Positions 21,783 to 24,998 of a stretch of 64,000 nt of DNA are shown here, piece by piece; positions within the stretch are counted from its first letter, which is position 1; every line of letters begins with the position of its first letter. The notes beneath the pieces are model-generated. The model was not told the origin of the DNA, did no database searches, and worked only from the letters and a program-made list of their open reading frames with translations. The stretch spans positions 1-64,000 of the forward strand of contig NZ_JARXHY010000002.1 in assembly GCF_031127815.1 (NCBI RefSeq), read 5' to 3'. This DNA comes from Pelagicoccus sp. SDUM812003. GTDB taxonomy: Bacteria; Verrucomicrobiota; Verrucomicrobiia; Opitutales; Opitutaceae. The position numbers were made by a program, and so were the translations under genes.

Positions 21783-23378
21783 TTAATTCACGTTCGTAAT
21801 GATGAGGCTGCTCGGAACCGCTGGCGCGGAAGCGTCCGCTGGCCAATCCTGGATAGCCCCGATGATTTCGAACTTGTCGAACACCGCGGTGGATACGCTG
21901 CTGGAGCCGCCAGCGAGAGCTAGACCGACGAAATACGGTTCGCCCAGTTCGACGCTGTCGGAGGCGAGCTCCGTCCACGTGCTTCCATCTGCCGAGCCAA
22001 AGAGCGTCACGTTCGAGCCTACCCGCTTCATGCGCAGGTAGCTGTAGGAAGAACCTGCCGCGTCGAGCGTCTGCGCGTTCGTCTGCCCTGCTCTACTCTC
22101 CCGCGACCGGTATTCGATCGATCCATCCGCGGCGACCAGCAAGGAGCTTTGGACGGAGCGTCCGTAGAGAGCGGAGCGCAGCATGATGCCGGCTACCGTT
22201 TCGCCAGAAGCCGCGTCGAGCGAGGCGAGACGGACTCGTACATCGACATCTCCCGACACCAGGGCGTGATAGTAGCGATGAGAATCAGAGATTCCGCCAA
22301 TCACCCCGAGGTCGTCCGTCACCGTGAAGCTGTCGCTGGCAAGGTCGTAGCTGACCGAACCATTGGGGGAGCTATGGTCCGTCGACACGTCACGCATGCC
22401 ATCCACGAGCTGCGAATCGGTTGGAGCCGAGCCCACGTTGATGACCTGAGAATCCGTGGAGGTGGCATCGTTGCCCGCCGCTTGAGCGACCGCGGCGAGC
22501 GTGCGGGCGCCTTCGGAAGCGGTCACGCTGATCGCGAACGGAGCGTCGGAAGAGCTGCCTACCGCCTCGCCATCGAGCGTGTAGCTCACGCTGGAGAACT
22601 TGGAAAGATCGGAAGAGCTGATGCTGACCTCGAACGCTTCGCCGCTGCGAGCTCCGTTTCCAACAAACGACACGGCCAGGTCGATCGCTGGCGCCACGTA
22701 CTCATTGACCAAAACCGACATCTGGGAAATGGAAACATCCTCCCCGTCGTCAACGCTCACGGTGATGATCGCGGTACCGGACTGGTTGGCCAAAGGGGTG
22801 ATGGTCAAGGTGCGCGTCGATCCCGTTCCTTCCAGAACAAGTCCGCTGCTGTCAACCACAGTTGTATTATCCGAATGAATACTTACAATCAGATCGCCTA
22901 CTTCAGATTCGACATCGCCGATCGTGAACGAAATCGGTCCGTAGGTTTCGTTTTCCTCGATCGTGATGTCGCTCAACGCGCTCACGGTCGGGGCTAGATT
23001 GTCGTAGAAGGTCGCTACATTGGTAAAGCCGGAGTTGCCGAATTCATTGTAGGCGTTCACTCGATACGCGTAGCTCGTGCCAGACTCGACATTCGAATCC
23101 ACGAACACGGCGACGTCCGCCTCGGTAGTGCCGATCAGCGACCAATCGCCGCCTTCGACGGATCGCTCCACATTGAAGCCGCTTTCATTGTCTGAATTGT
23201 CGGTCCACGAAAGCTGCGCCTGGAGGGCGAACGCGGAACTGGTAAGTGCGCCCAGCGCTAGCGAGGCAGCAGCAAGCCCGCGCCCCAGCCGTCTGCCGGC
23301 GGAGCCGAGGGTGAAACATTCGCGCGGCTCTTCATAGCCCGTACGCGAATAAAAGGGTCCAAGAACTGAATTTTGCAT
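21783..23378 (-). CDS. Secreted Fn3 / Ig-like / LamG-like beta-sandwich protein
   Basis: The 531-residue protein is exported: a basic stretch and hydrophobic core (GRRLGRGLAAASLALG) precede ALQAQLSW. The mature part has a fibronectin type III domain (about 55-130, with ESGFNVERS and SYAYRVNAYNEFG). A cadherin/Ig-like domain follows (about 135-230, VSALSDITIEENET and ANQSGTAIITVSVDDG), then another Ig-like domain with YTLDGEAVGSSS. The C-terminal sandwich of about 180 residues has GIMLRSALYGRSVQSSL and FGSADGSTWTELASDSVELG, typical of DUF1349/LamG-like carbohydrate-binding modules. No catalytic domain and no PEP-CTERM tail is visible. It may bind glycans at the cell surface. The start is uncertain because of the hairpin immediately upstream. 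Confidence 0.65.
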   Translation of the reverse strand: MQNSVLGPFYSRTGYEEPRECFTLGSAGRRLGRGLAAASLALGALTSSAFALQAQLSWTDNSDNESGFNVERSVEGGDWSLIGTTEADVAVFVDSNVESGTSYAYRVNAYNEFGNSGFTNVATFYDNLAPTVSALSDITIEENETYGPISFTIGDVESEVGDLIVSIHSDNTTVVDSSGLVLEGTGSTRTLTITPLANQSGTAIITVSVDDGEDVSISQMSVLVNEYVAPAIDLAVSFVGNGARSGEAFEVSISSSDLSKFSSVSYTLDGEAVGSSSDAPFAISVTASEGARTLAAVAQAAGNDATSTDSQVINVGSAPTDSQLVDGMRDVSTDHSSPNGSVSYDLASDSFTVTDDLGVIGGISDSHRYYHALVSGDVDVRVRLASLDAASGETVAGIMLRSALYGRSVQSSLLVAADGSIEYRSRESRAGQTNAQTLDAAGSSYSYLRMKRVGSNVTLFGSADGSTWTELASDSVELGEPYFVGLALAGGSSSVSTAVFDKFEIIGAIQDWPADASAPAVPSSLIITNVN

Positions 23379-23380
23379 GA

Positions 23381-23396
23381 CCCCCGAAAACGGGGG
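23381..23396 (-). promoter_or_regulatory. GC hairpin abutting the start codon
   Basis: CCCCCGTTTTCGGGGG on the minus strand forms a 5- to 6-bp all-GC stem ending two bases before the ATG at 23378. Its GGGGG is the only sequence there that could serve as a ribosome site, and it would be hidden in the stem. It may limit translation, or the true start may be the GTG at 23399. Confidence 0.4.
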
Positions 23397-23524
23397 CACG
23401 CCAATATACTGGAGGCAATTTCGTAAACTTGAAGTCTAGCCCCGATCACGCGTGAGGATCTTCCACAGTAGGCATTGTCATTACTATGACTCGATCCCTT
23501 GAGGCATATTCCCCAGTCTCCCCT

Positions 23525-24634
23525 TCAGCGCCTTCTCCCTCCCTCTCCTAGGTTCGAAGCCAGCAAACGAACGATCCGTTCCGTATCATTCCAACCGATA
23601 CATGAGTCCGTAATGGATTTCCCGAACACTCTCGCCACGCCATCCCTTAGGCCCTGTTGACCCTCGACCAGATTGCTTTCCAGCATGAGACCTGCGATGC
23701 CTCCCTGTCCCGCCGCAAACTGCTGAGCGACGGCTTGGGCGACACCCTCCTGTCGACGGTGGTCCTTGGCGGAGTTTCCATGCGAGCAGTCGACCACTAC
23801 CGGACGCTGCAGGTCGGGGCGACGCGCGGCTTCAACCGTTTGGTTGACACAGGATTGGTGGAAGTTGGGCCCGGAGCTACCGCCGCGCAAAATGACGTGT
23901 GTGGCGGGATTTCCGGAAGACTGCAACCAGCAGGGCATCCCTCGATCGCTCACGCCGAAATAGCTGTGCGGCTGAGCAGCCGACAATACCGCGTTCAAAG
24001 CCGATTTCGGGTCTCCGTCCATGCCGTTTTTCATGCCGATCGGCATGGTCATGCTACTGGCCATTTCTCGATGCAACTGGGATTCCACCGTGCGCGAGCC
24101 GATCGAGCCGTAGCTGATCGCATCTTCAAGATAGGGCGCCAGCATGGGGTTAAGAAACTCCGTGGCGCATCCGACTCCACTGTCCGCGAGGTGCGTCAAC
24201 AGCCGACGCGCCATCGAAAGGCCGTCCATCGCTGGGCCCCTCTCTGCTCCCATCAGCGGGTCGTAGATCAAGCCCTTCCATCCCAGCACGCTGCGCGGCT
24301 TCTCGAAATAGCACCGCATCACCAGCAGCACGCGATCGCTCACCTCCTCCGCCAGCTTCCCGAGCTTCTCCGCATAAACAACCGCTGCGTCCACGTCATC
24401 GATCGAGCAGGGACCGCTCACCACGAGCAGTCGATCTCGGTCTCGGCCGCTCAGAATATTCGCGATTTGGGATCGGGTCCGCTCGACTTGAGCCCGCGCT
24501 GCTTCGCTCAGCGGTATGTCTCGTCTCAGTCTGGATGGCGATACGAGCTCGACCGGCGGCGGAGTGGCGAGGCGTTTCGCTTCGACGGCGGACGATCGTT
24601 CCTCCGCGGCGTTGGGTGCAATGTCACATTTCAT
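23525..24634 (-). CDS. aroF: 3-deoxy-7-phosphoheptulonate (DAHP) synthase, class I
   Basis: The 369-residue enzyme joins phosphoenolpyruvate and erythrose 4-phosphate in the first step of the shikimate pathway to Phe, Tyr and Trp. It is of the AroF/G/H (class I alpha) type. Motifs are LLVVSGPCSIDD, MRCYFEKPRSVLGWKGLIYDP, CATEFLNPM, SYGSIGSRTVESQLHRE, ILRGGSSGPNF, VVDCSHGNSAKDH with metal-binding residues, and ESNLVEGQQ. Length is close to the E. coli isozymes (350-356). Which isozyme (Tyr-, Phe- or Trp-sensitive) cannot be told, so the symbol is provisional. Expression is probably set by the leader-peptide attenuator upstream. Confidence 0.9.
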   Translation of the reverse strand: MKCDIAPNAAEERSSAVEAKRLATPPPVELVSPSRLRRDIPLSEAARAQVERTRSQIANILSGRDRDRLLVVSGPCSIDDVDAAVVYAEKLGKLAEEVSDRVLLVMRCYFEKPRSVLGWKGLIYDPLMGAERGPAMDGLSMARRLLTHLADSGVGCATEFLNPMLAPYLEDAISYGSIGSRTVESQLHREMASSMTMPIGMKNGMDGDPKSALNAVLSAAQPHSYFGVSDRGMPCWLQSSGNPATHVILRGGSSGPNFHQSCVNQTVEAARRPDLQRPVVVDCSHGNSAKDHRRQEGVAQAVAQQFAAGQGGIAGLMLESNLVEGQQGLRDGVARVFGKSITDSCIGWNDTERIVRLLASNLGEGGRRR

Positions 24635-24676
24635 GGTAGGGATGGTTTGTCTTGATACGTTAGAGGGAGATGGAAA

Positions 24677-24722
24677 CGCGAAAAGCCCTGGGATTCACAG
24701 TGAATACCCAGGGCTTTTCGCG
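24677..24722 (-). terminator. Attenuator terminator hairpin before DAHP synthase
   Basis: A 16-bp perfect stem, CGCGAAAAGCCCTGGG with CCCAGGGCTTTTCGCG, continues inward through GTGAAT/ATTCAC, giving a nearly perfect 46-base palindrome. On the minus strand the AAAAGCCC...GGGCTTTT form is that of an intrinsic terminator. It lies between the leader peptide stop and the DAHP synthase start, 42 bases before the ATG, so it would stop transcription before the gene. Confidence 0.85.
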
Positions 24723-24756
24723 TCGAAATCGATGTGTTGGTTTTAACTACACGCTC

Positions 24757-24819
24757 TTACGCTCCTGGGCCTTTCCAGAAGTAATAAAACCAAAAATAGC
24801 TGAAGGACGCGGAACGCAT
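24757..24819 (-). CDS. aroF leader peptide (Phe/Tyr/Trp-rich)
   Basis: This 20-residue open frame reads M-R-S-A-S, then FSYFWFYYFW, then KGPGA and TAA. Nine of the ten central residues are aromatic: four Phe, three Tyr, two Trp. It has its own ribosome site, GGAG seven bases before the ATG. Such composition is essentially diagnostic of a ribosome-mediated attenuator. Known leaders are usually loaded with one amino acid (pheL with Phe, trpL with Trp); here all three end products of the pathway are represented, matching a DAHP synthase that feeds all of them. It was found by reading the minus strand upstream of the terminator hairpin. Confidence 0.85.
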   Translation of the reverse strand: MRSASFSYFWFYYFWKGPGA

Positions 24820-24998
24820 AGATGAGCTCCACTAAGCGCCTCGCACCTCGCGAGGTCAAGCCTTCAGCGCGCCCCGCCCACCTACGCAGGGCTCCGAAAA
24901 TCGCCTAGGGCCAGCGCGGTTTCCCCGAGCGAATCCGCAGCGCGAGCCGCTTTCTCCGTTGCCAAACCCGTTTCCTAAGATTCTCATCCCCAACGCGT

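Follow-up and report, generated by a model that had tools for sequence, protein, structure and literature searches.

DAHP synthase serves three end products and poses the textbook problem of a single step under several demands, for which E. coli has separate DAHP synthase isozymes and repressors. Attenuators may read one amino acid, as at pheA, or several, as in the ilvGMEDA and thr leaders. For DAHP synthase itself, a leader named aroR in the aroF operon of C. glutamicum was reportedly described by Neshat et al. in 2014. It codes for Phe-Tyr-Phe before aroF and is reported to respond to Phe, with Tyr supply being without effect (PMC11802643; the leader is also treated in PMC4046766); a codon in such a leader thus need not be a sensor. 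The repressors named for E. coli in the same context are TyrR and TrpR (PMC11802643).

Other relevant cases are predictions. The Acholeplasma aroF gene is preceded by uORFC-13-1, a predicted upstream open reading frame with a promoter, a terminator, and at least one Phe codon (Brewer et al. 2021, PMC8632094). Tabulated predictions place attenuators before operons of a Tyr-type DAHP synthase gene and tyrA in two Vibrio species (PMC1173090, Table 7), and an aroF entry elsewhere reads "Attenuator sensing tyr-tRNA" (PMC2659441, Table 3). For the Actinobacteria examined in a further study, conserved RNA structures are reported to be lacking ahead of the operons for phenylalanine or tyrosine (PMC1262725).

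Here we describe a locus in a 64,000-nucleotide stretch of the Pelagicoccus sp. SDUM812003 genome (hereafter, the window), in which a DAHP synthase gene is preceded by a short leader peptide gene rich in Phe, Tyr, and Trp codons and by a terminator-like hairpin. Our preferred reading, which we hold to be quite likely, is ribosome-mediated attenuation of transcription as in the trp, his, and phe operons, with Phe, Tyr, and Trp as the inputs of an OR gate and with one of the genome's two AroFGH-type DAHP synthases under its control.

The leaders of ilvGMEDA and thr resemble that of the window in that one leader reads codons for several end products, but these are branched-chain or Thr/Ile codons, neither aromatic nor connected with DAHP synthase. 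The enterobacterial trp, pheA, and his attenuators share the 1:2, 2:3, and 3:4 arrangement with regulatory codons over segment 1 (PMC1183508). Each of these, however, senses one amino acid. Closer in position is aroR, likewise a short leader of aromatic codons with attenuation before a DAHP synthase gene; it is set apart, by its description, as a Phe-Tyr-Phe leader for which no Trp is mentioned and as belonging to another phylum. The predicted ORF, promoter, and terminator of uORFC-13-1 also precede a DAHP synthase gene but, again by description, Phe is named and Tyr and Trp are not, a ribosome binding site is reported, and the phylum is a different one. The Vibrio and PMC2659441 aroF entries have in common with the window an attenuator proposed before a DAHP synthase gene, but they are predictions, and the tables concerned describe no three-aromatic leader peptide.

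Because leaders and attenuators before DAHP synthase have already been described or predicted, the mechanism is of a known kind; what is new is the proposed three-way input at the DAHP synthase step. The original prediction, made from the sequence of the window, was that no leader of exactly this kind had been described before aroF, aroG, or aroH. DAHP synthase leaders as such are known (C. glutamicum aroR) or predicted (Acholeplasma uORFC-13-1), but no leader with Phe, Tyr, and Trp codons before DAHP synthase was found in the open-access literature searched. The same literature yielded no leader peptide described in the window's phylum.

The DAHP synthase gene and its neighbors

The enzyme scores 387 bits against NCBIfam TIGR00034 (aroFGH; cut-off, 173), matches Pfam PF00793, and has among its best solved-structure matches DAHP synthases named Tyr-sensitive and Phe-sensitive. 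There are four DAHP synthase family matches in the window's genome, and a protein search of that genome with the window's enzyme finds two, itself and one at 44% identity. As would be expected of an attenuator with these codons, the gene that follows it (Table 1) carries out the first step to all three aromatics.

The gene upstream in the window is divergent, and it was not found in the ~1-kb upstream regions of the relatives; the element thus goes with the enzyme and not with this neighbor. On the other side, the gene that follows DAHP synthase (positions 21783 to 23399, 538 aa) has an Ig-like domain match below the cut-off, and it adjoins DAHP synthase in six relatives of the same genus too (L006 to L010 and L012; 41 to 46% identity).

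Table 1. Features of the DAHP synthase leader region, in coordinates of the window
Feature	Positions	Strand	Remarks
-35-like hexamer TTGACC	24854..24859	minus	40 bases upstream of leader ATG; member of top promoter-like pair in 170 bases scored
-10-like hexamer CTTAGT	24831..24836	minus	weak consensus match; predicted transcript start ~4 bases before AUG
GGAG, Shine-Dalgarno-like	24827..24830	minus	probably not used; upstream of predicted transcript start
Leader peptide gene MRSASFSYFWFYYFWKGPGA	24757..24819	minus	20 codons plus TAA; conserved in 19 loci, decayed in a 20th
Control core F W F Y Y F W	24775..24795	minus	UUU UGG UUU UAU UAC UUC UGG
Segment 1, CUUCUGG	24775..24781	minus	5' arm of protector hairpin
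Segment 2, CCCAGGAGC	24761..24769	minus	end of peptide gene; shared by protector (3' arm) and antiterminator (5' arm)
Segment 3, GCCCUGGG	24707..24714	minus	3' arm of antiterminator, 5' arm of terminator
Terminator hairpin	24677..24722	minus	16-bp outer stem, then UUUU; segment 4 is CCCAGGGC (24692-24685)
Class-I DAHP synthase gene (AroFGH type)	23525..24634	minus	369 aa

Conservation of the leader peptide and hairpin

Close orthologues of the enzyme (E ≤ 1e-95) occur in 17 of the 252 genomes of the family, distributed over three genera, and all 17 carry the element (eight loci, L005 to L012, and nine, L130 to L138). The aromatic leader predicted for the minus strand, of 20 codons in the window, is therefore present in every close orthologue, and so is the hairpin, their joint conservation in relatives having been set as the test of the idea. 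Sixteen of the 17 encode the enzyme in an uninterrupted frame, of 352 to 373 aa from the first suitable ATG. Two further loci bring the total to 19, one in which the gene runs off the contig end (G226) and one in which it is broken by stops (G217). A twentieth place, in G218, retains the hairpin and the spacing, with the core decayed to FWSEFL followed by a stop and with in-frame stops in the enzyme gene (40% identity). We note that enzyme gene decay recurs in genus g64 (L154 in G218, L155 to L157 in G217, and L138 in G220), the frame of the last being interrupted, perhaps by assembly, and that G217 has kept its leader with a segment-2 change that weakens the antiterminator.

The leader consensus among carriers is Phe-Trp-Phe-x-x-Phe-(Trp). 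FWF and the last F are found in all 19 loci; these residues were part of the core search pattern, though none of the orthologues was without them. The last W is kept in 18, having been lost in G221 (TTCGGG). Core codons 4 and 5 drift among Y, F, H, T, and C, giving the variants FWFYYFW, FWFFYFW, FWFFFFW, FWFYFFW, FWFYTFW, FWFYTFG, FWFHYFW, and FWFFCFW, and the N-terminal part of the peptide is not conserved between loci. If a sensing window is defined as the nine codons from four before the core up to core codon 5, codons for Phe, Tyr, and Trp all lie within it at every one of the 19 loci. Tyr is always among them but its position moves, and in G164 and G219 it stands solely before the core. 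Peptide, stop position, spacing, and hairpins are conserved together.

As regards codon choice, Phe is encoded by UUU at core position 1 in 18 of the 19 loci, and at position 3 likewise in 18, but the sixth, structural Phe codon is UUC in 18 of 19; five long genes of the window prefer UUC over UUU, by 143 to 55. Shared ancestry may explain part of this pattern in the core.

Open reading frames with all three aromatics and at least six aromatics in 12 residues were present in 31 of 134 real DAHP synthase upstream regions versus 22 of 2,680 base-shuffled ones. The 31 regions are not independent, since 18 of them belong to the window's clade. At the DNA level, the pattern FW[FY][FY][FY]FW matches 14 of the 252 family genomes, against 1 of 252 for the backwards pattern; among 286 genomes of the class it matches five, four of them in the window's family, against three for the backwards pattern, and no DAHP synthase was seen beside the fifth match (G417). 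G005, of the same genus as the window, has neither a close orthologue nor this pattern.

Some match to the window's enzyme is present in 51 of 57 genomes among the relatives, the window's own included. The covariance model R1, run on 57 DAHP synthase loci of the family and order, matches 20, which are the 19 loci and G218, and none of the 37 others; 18 of the 20 trained R1, with G217 and G218 lying outside model alignment A2. Weak opposite-strand matches of R1 in the same loci follow from the symmetry of the hairpin. The enzymes that bear the leader form one clade with 100/100 support, apart from the genomes' other DAHP synthase, in a midpoint-rooted tree that contains 16 leader rows of the 19 loci and one long branch (L137), and from which L138, L150, L154, and L157 are absent.

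A wider family was sought and not found: applied to 288 genomes drawn from the phylum at E ≤ 0.001, R1 retrieves just the window's genome, G217 (also on the opposite strand, at 2e-4), and G651 (9e-4), where the stretch is by eye an ordinary terminator without a leader core. Rfam, with leader and T-box families included, gives no match at the gathering score in the 64-kb window, and a riboswitch, a T-box, or a known leader family was rejected on this ground.

Competing structures in the leader RNA

The leader RNA has the classic 1:2, 2:3, and 3:4 layout. A 16-bp terminator stem had been proposed, and it is perfect, CGCGAAAAGCCCTGGG pairing with CCCAGGGCTTTTCGCG (24722-24707 with 24692-24677); within its loop ATTCAC and GTGAAT are also able to pair, and relatives share the hairpin, which among element carriers is near-invariant as AAAGCCCTGG...CCAGGGCTTTT. 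The proposed complementarity of CCCAGG and CCTGGG likewise holds (24769-24764 versus 24712-24707), and the competition between the alternative pairings is conserved across relatives. In silico, antiterminator and terminator are mutually exclusive, segment 2 lies beside the control codons, and the pairings are compatible with the layout. Positions 24660 to 24831 fold at -67.1 kcal/mol versus -41.2 ± 3.6 kcal/mol for shuffled sequences (z, -7.2), none of 200 being as low.

Given no structure, RNAalifold draws the terminator and the protector, in which CUUCUGG pairs with CCAG(A/G)(A/G)G where the peptide gene ends, and the five pairs with kept double changes are all in the terminator hairpin. Paired cells amount to 98.4% for the protector (18 sequences, with zero covariation), 97.4% for the terminator, and 94.1% for the antiterminator, CCCAG(x)GGC with GCCCUGGG (19 sequences), versus 2.6 to 58.6% when the latter is slid. 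At the outermost 2:3 pair, three sequences have U-A in place of C-G and five have no pairing, and the bulged base lies one place later in the window and in G002 than in the others. Against 500 shuffles, the pairing and score observed for 2:3 were reached in 5, its number of double-change pairs in 364, and its further pair types in all 500; for the terminator the pairing was reached in 52 and the score in 19, the various measures ranging from 19 to 445. Covariation is thin, since the stem sequences are near-invariant and the loci are related. The energy of the 2:3 duplex falls in the best 5% of random local segments at 15 of the 19 loci, the exceptions being G006, G223, G003, and G220.

In all 19 loci a strong hairpin is situated 74 to 81 bases after the core start, with a U tract of just four or five U's broken by GC, and a simple terminator scan did not flag the window's hairpin, a putative intrinsic terminator whose U tract is short. 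By eye, and in genus g1 only, the core can also be paired with an AGAACC(A/G)A-like stretch after the stop, a pairing that we set aside.

Putative promoter and translation start

A -35-like hexamer at -36 to -40 from the leader ATG scored best in 12 of the 19 loci, the best place differing in the other seven, and among L005 to L012 it reads TTGACC in seven and TTGAAA in G019. In 12 of 19 loci the best promoter-like pair would place the transcript start 0 to 5 bases ahead of the leader AUG; in the remaining seven it points to another site. The -10 boxes are weak across loci and a stricter consensus scan found no promoter, so that the promoter position is best taken as putative.

The ribosome site originally assigned to the leader proved not to be conserved. 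In the window GGAG stands at -11 from the leader ATG, and Shine-Dalgarno-like words precede the leader in just 3 of the 19 loci, the window included, so the word is probably there by accident. This argument is weak alone, since DAHP synthase starts have no clear Shine-Dalgarno either (by eye). Taken together with the predicted starts close to the AUG in 12 of 19 loci, the scarcity of such words makes it more likely that the leader RNA is leaderless or nearly so. Such transcripts are reported for leaders in Streptomyces lividans (PMC8079986).

A model of ribosome stalling

To model a stalled ribosome, we assumed three alternative ribosome edges, ended the transcript right before segment 4, and folded the RNA that lies beyond the ribosome; the antiterminator was scored as formed at a probability of at least 0.5. 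A ribosome halted at any of core codons 1 to 5 (F, W, F, x, and x) lets the antiterminator form in 18 of the 19 loci (17 at codon 5 with the widest edge); at the sixth codon it forms in 18, 13, or none, depending on the edge, and at the last Trp codon or the stop in none. Stalling at the two codons before the core gives 18 of 19, and at the two before those 14 to 18. The sole failure at all stall codons is G217, in which the enzyme gene is broken. When the ribosome is left out, the protector reaches a probability of 0.5 in just 9 of the 19 loci, and 7 of 19 form the antiterminator nonetheless; the prediction is therefore that 12 of 19, and not all, are shut off when there is no translation. 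Once folding is complete, the terminator is favored in each of the states tried, so the outcome must depend on the order of synthesis, as in other attenuators.

According to this model, Phe (codons 1 and 3), Trp (codon 2), and Tyr (codons 4 and 5, or just before codon 1) would each be able to bring about release, and reliable sensing should be expected just from core codons 1 to 5 and the codons right before them. The last Trp codon is, in the model, structural, being part of RNA stems, and G221 has no Trp there. The proposal that shortage of any one aromatic could release termination is consequently borne out by the model for Phe, Trp, and Tyr codons alike, with the last Trp codon falling outside it, and sensing in the cell is predicted to follow the same codons.

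We infer promoter position, stalling, termination, and the amino acids sensed in the cell from the sequences and the folding model, and the switch would then work as follows. Transcription would start a few bases from the leader AUG, and the peptide would be translated from a leaderless or nearly leaderless RNA. When charged tRNAs for all three amino acids are plentiful, the ribosome would reach the stop codon and cover segment 2, segment 3 would pair with segment 4, and transcription would stop with 42 bases to go to the DAHP synthase ATG. Shortage of any one aromatic would hold the ribosome at one of the Phe, Trp, or Tyr codons within core codons 1 to 5, or at a Tyr codon just before them, leaving segment 2 exposed to pair with segment 3 before segment 4 is made, and no terminator would form. 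The last Phe-Trp codons would mainly provide segment 1 of the protector hairpin.

Alternative readings

The same attenuator could respond to just one or two amino acids, for instance Phe and Trp, the other aromatic codons being passengers or structural, and we regard this as rather unlikely, if well worth keeping in view. FWF is invariant and Tyr drifts at codons 4 and 5 (Y, F, H, T, or C), much as this reading would have it, and the C. glutamicum aroR leader, Phe-Tyr-Phe in sequence, is reported to respond to Phe and not to Tyr (PMC11802643). At least one Tyr codon is nevertheless kept in the sensing window at all 19 loci in spite of its shifting position, and the stall model gives release at Tyr positions too; both speak against this reading.

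TnaC provides the precedent for an arrest peptide, in which a nascent FWF..FW together with a free aromatic amino acid or another ligand would stall the ribosome and the hairpins would respond. FWF and the next F are indeed stiffer than a simple need for aromatic codons would call for (19 of 19 loci, in a search whose pattern required them), but segment 1 accounts for part of that rigidity, G221 has no last Trp, codons 4 and 5 vary, and the N-terminal part is not conserved, which together render an arrest peptide improbable.

It is very improbable that the hairpin acts by hiding the DAHP synthase start in place of stopping transcription. The weak U tract would suit such translational control, but in the window the stem ends 42 bases short of the ATG, and among the 17 loci in which a long ATG or GTG frame was found, the first such frame begins 23 to 60 bases past CCAGGGCTT in 16 and 5 bases past it in G007.

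A plain, perhaps bidirectional, terminator or RNA-stability hairpin beside a chance open reading frame hardly merits belief: the symmetry of the hairpin, flanked by A and T tracts at either end, would suit it, but in 19 loci conservation extends from the hairpin to the peptide, its frame, its stop position, and the 2:3 pairing, and the window's upstream gene is divergent, so that no gene needs a terminator here.

Aromatic leaders outside the clade

DAHP synthase genes of Lentisphaeria have a Phe/Tyr/Trp leader of their own, which we read in ten loci, several of them near-identical (L037, L038, L040, L043, L045, L046, L048, L049, L052, and L053). It reads SIRFYGFFWRF in eight of the ten, SIRFYGFSWRF in L049, and SFRFFGFFWRFY in L053, and lies ~200 to 300 bases before the match start. 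All ten have a TTGACT box 36 to 39 bases before the ATG and no Shine-Dalgarno-like word. A first terminator hairpin was located by script in nine of the ten, and a rival pairing, with raw energies of -15.6 to -21.9 kcal/mol, may form with the sequence that follows the stop; two tandem terminator-like hairpins after the leader are seen by eye in several loci. In L043, the sole locus read for fusion, DAHP synthase is fused to prephenate dehydratase and an ACT domain, and G589, a genome in the window's phylum, encodes a protein 100% identical to that of L043. These leaders resemble that of the window in that codons for all three aromatics are combined with a terminator and a promoter-like box (TTGACT here, TTGACC in the window), but there is no evident shared sequence, the enzymes form a separate clade (100/100), and the prephenate dehydratase and ACT domain fused in L043 set them apart.

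Further afield, L093, from a gammaproteobacterium of the Hahellaceae, has EFFTGWHYWFYFF before DAHP synthase and then a terminator; its candidate leader, ~263 bases before the match start, ends in EFFTGWHYWFYFFSKSVKHT and has a terminator-like hairpin. L254 (G690) has MKTTRLLNIAFYFFNFFLFRR... and a strong terminator-like hairpin before DAHP synthase in a 671-aa open frame, a possible Phe/Tyr leader. In the window's own family, L031 (G025) has a short open reading frame, MNFPWFLSYWFKAIYK, and a strong terminator-like hairpin before DAHP synthase, which may be chance.

The idea that aromatic leaders are widespread did not survive a screen of 90 more upstream regions of the phylum, namely, the 30 best matches to the Lentisphaeria query, which overlap the named loci, and 60 hand-picked from listed places. 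Nine three-aromatic open reading frames were found versus 16 in 900 shuffles; six of the nine are Lentisphaeria leaders and the other three have no terminator after them. Within the loci screened, such leaders look rare elsewhere.

Implications for aromatic amino acid control

We would suggest, tentatively and with somewhat less than even confidence, that three-aromatic attenuators at the entry to the shikimate pathway arose more than once, and that the window's clade has evolved a nearly leaderless, ordered OR gate (Phe and Trp first, Tyr next, and the final Trp structural), which would put a second DAHP synthase under shared transcriptional control by all three amino acids, instead of relying on three isozymes under separate control. 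The system lends itself to asking at which codons sensing occurs, in what way a single control region serves three amino acids, and whether a leaderless leader peptide can be coupled to transcription in this setting. If the attenuator works as proposed, a single RNA would sum three demands on DAHP synthase, and a compact sensor of general aromatic supply would be conceivable.
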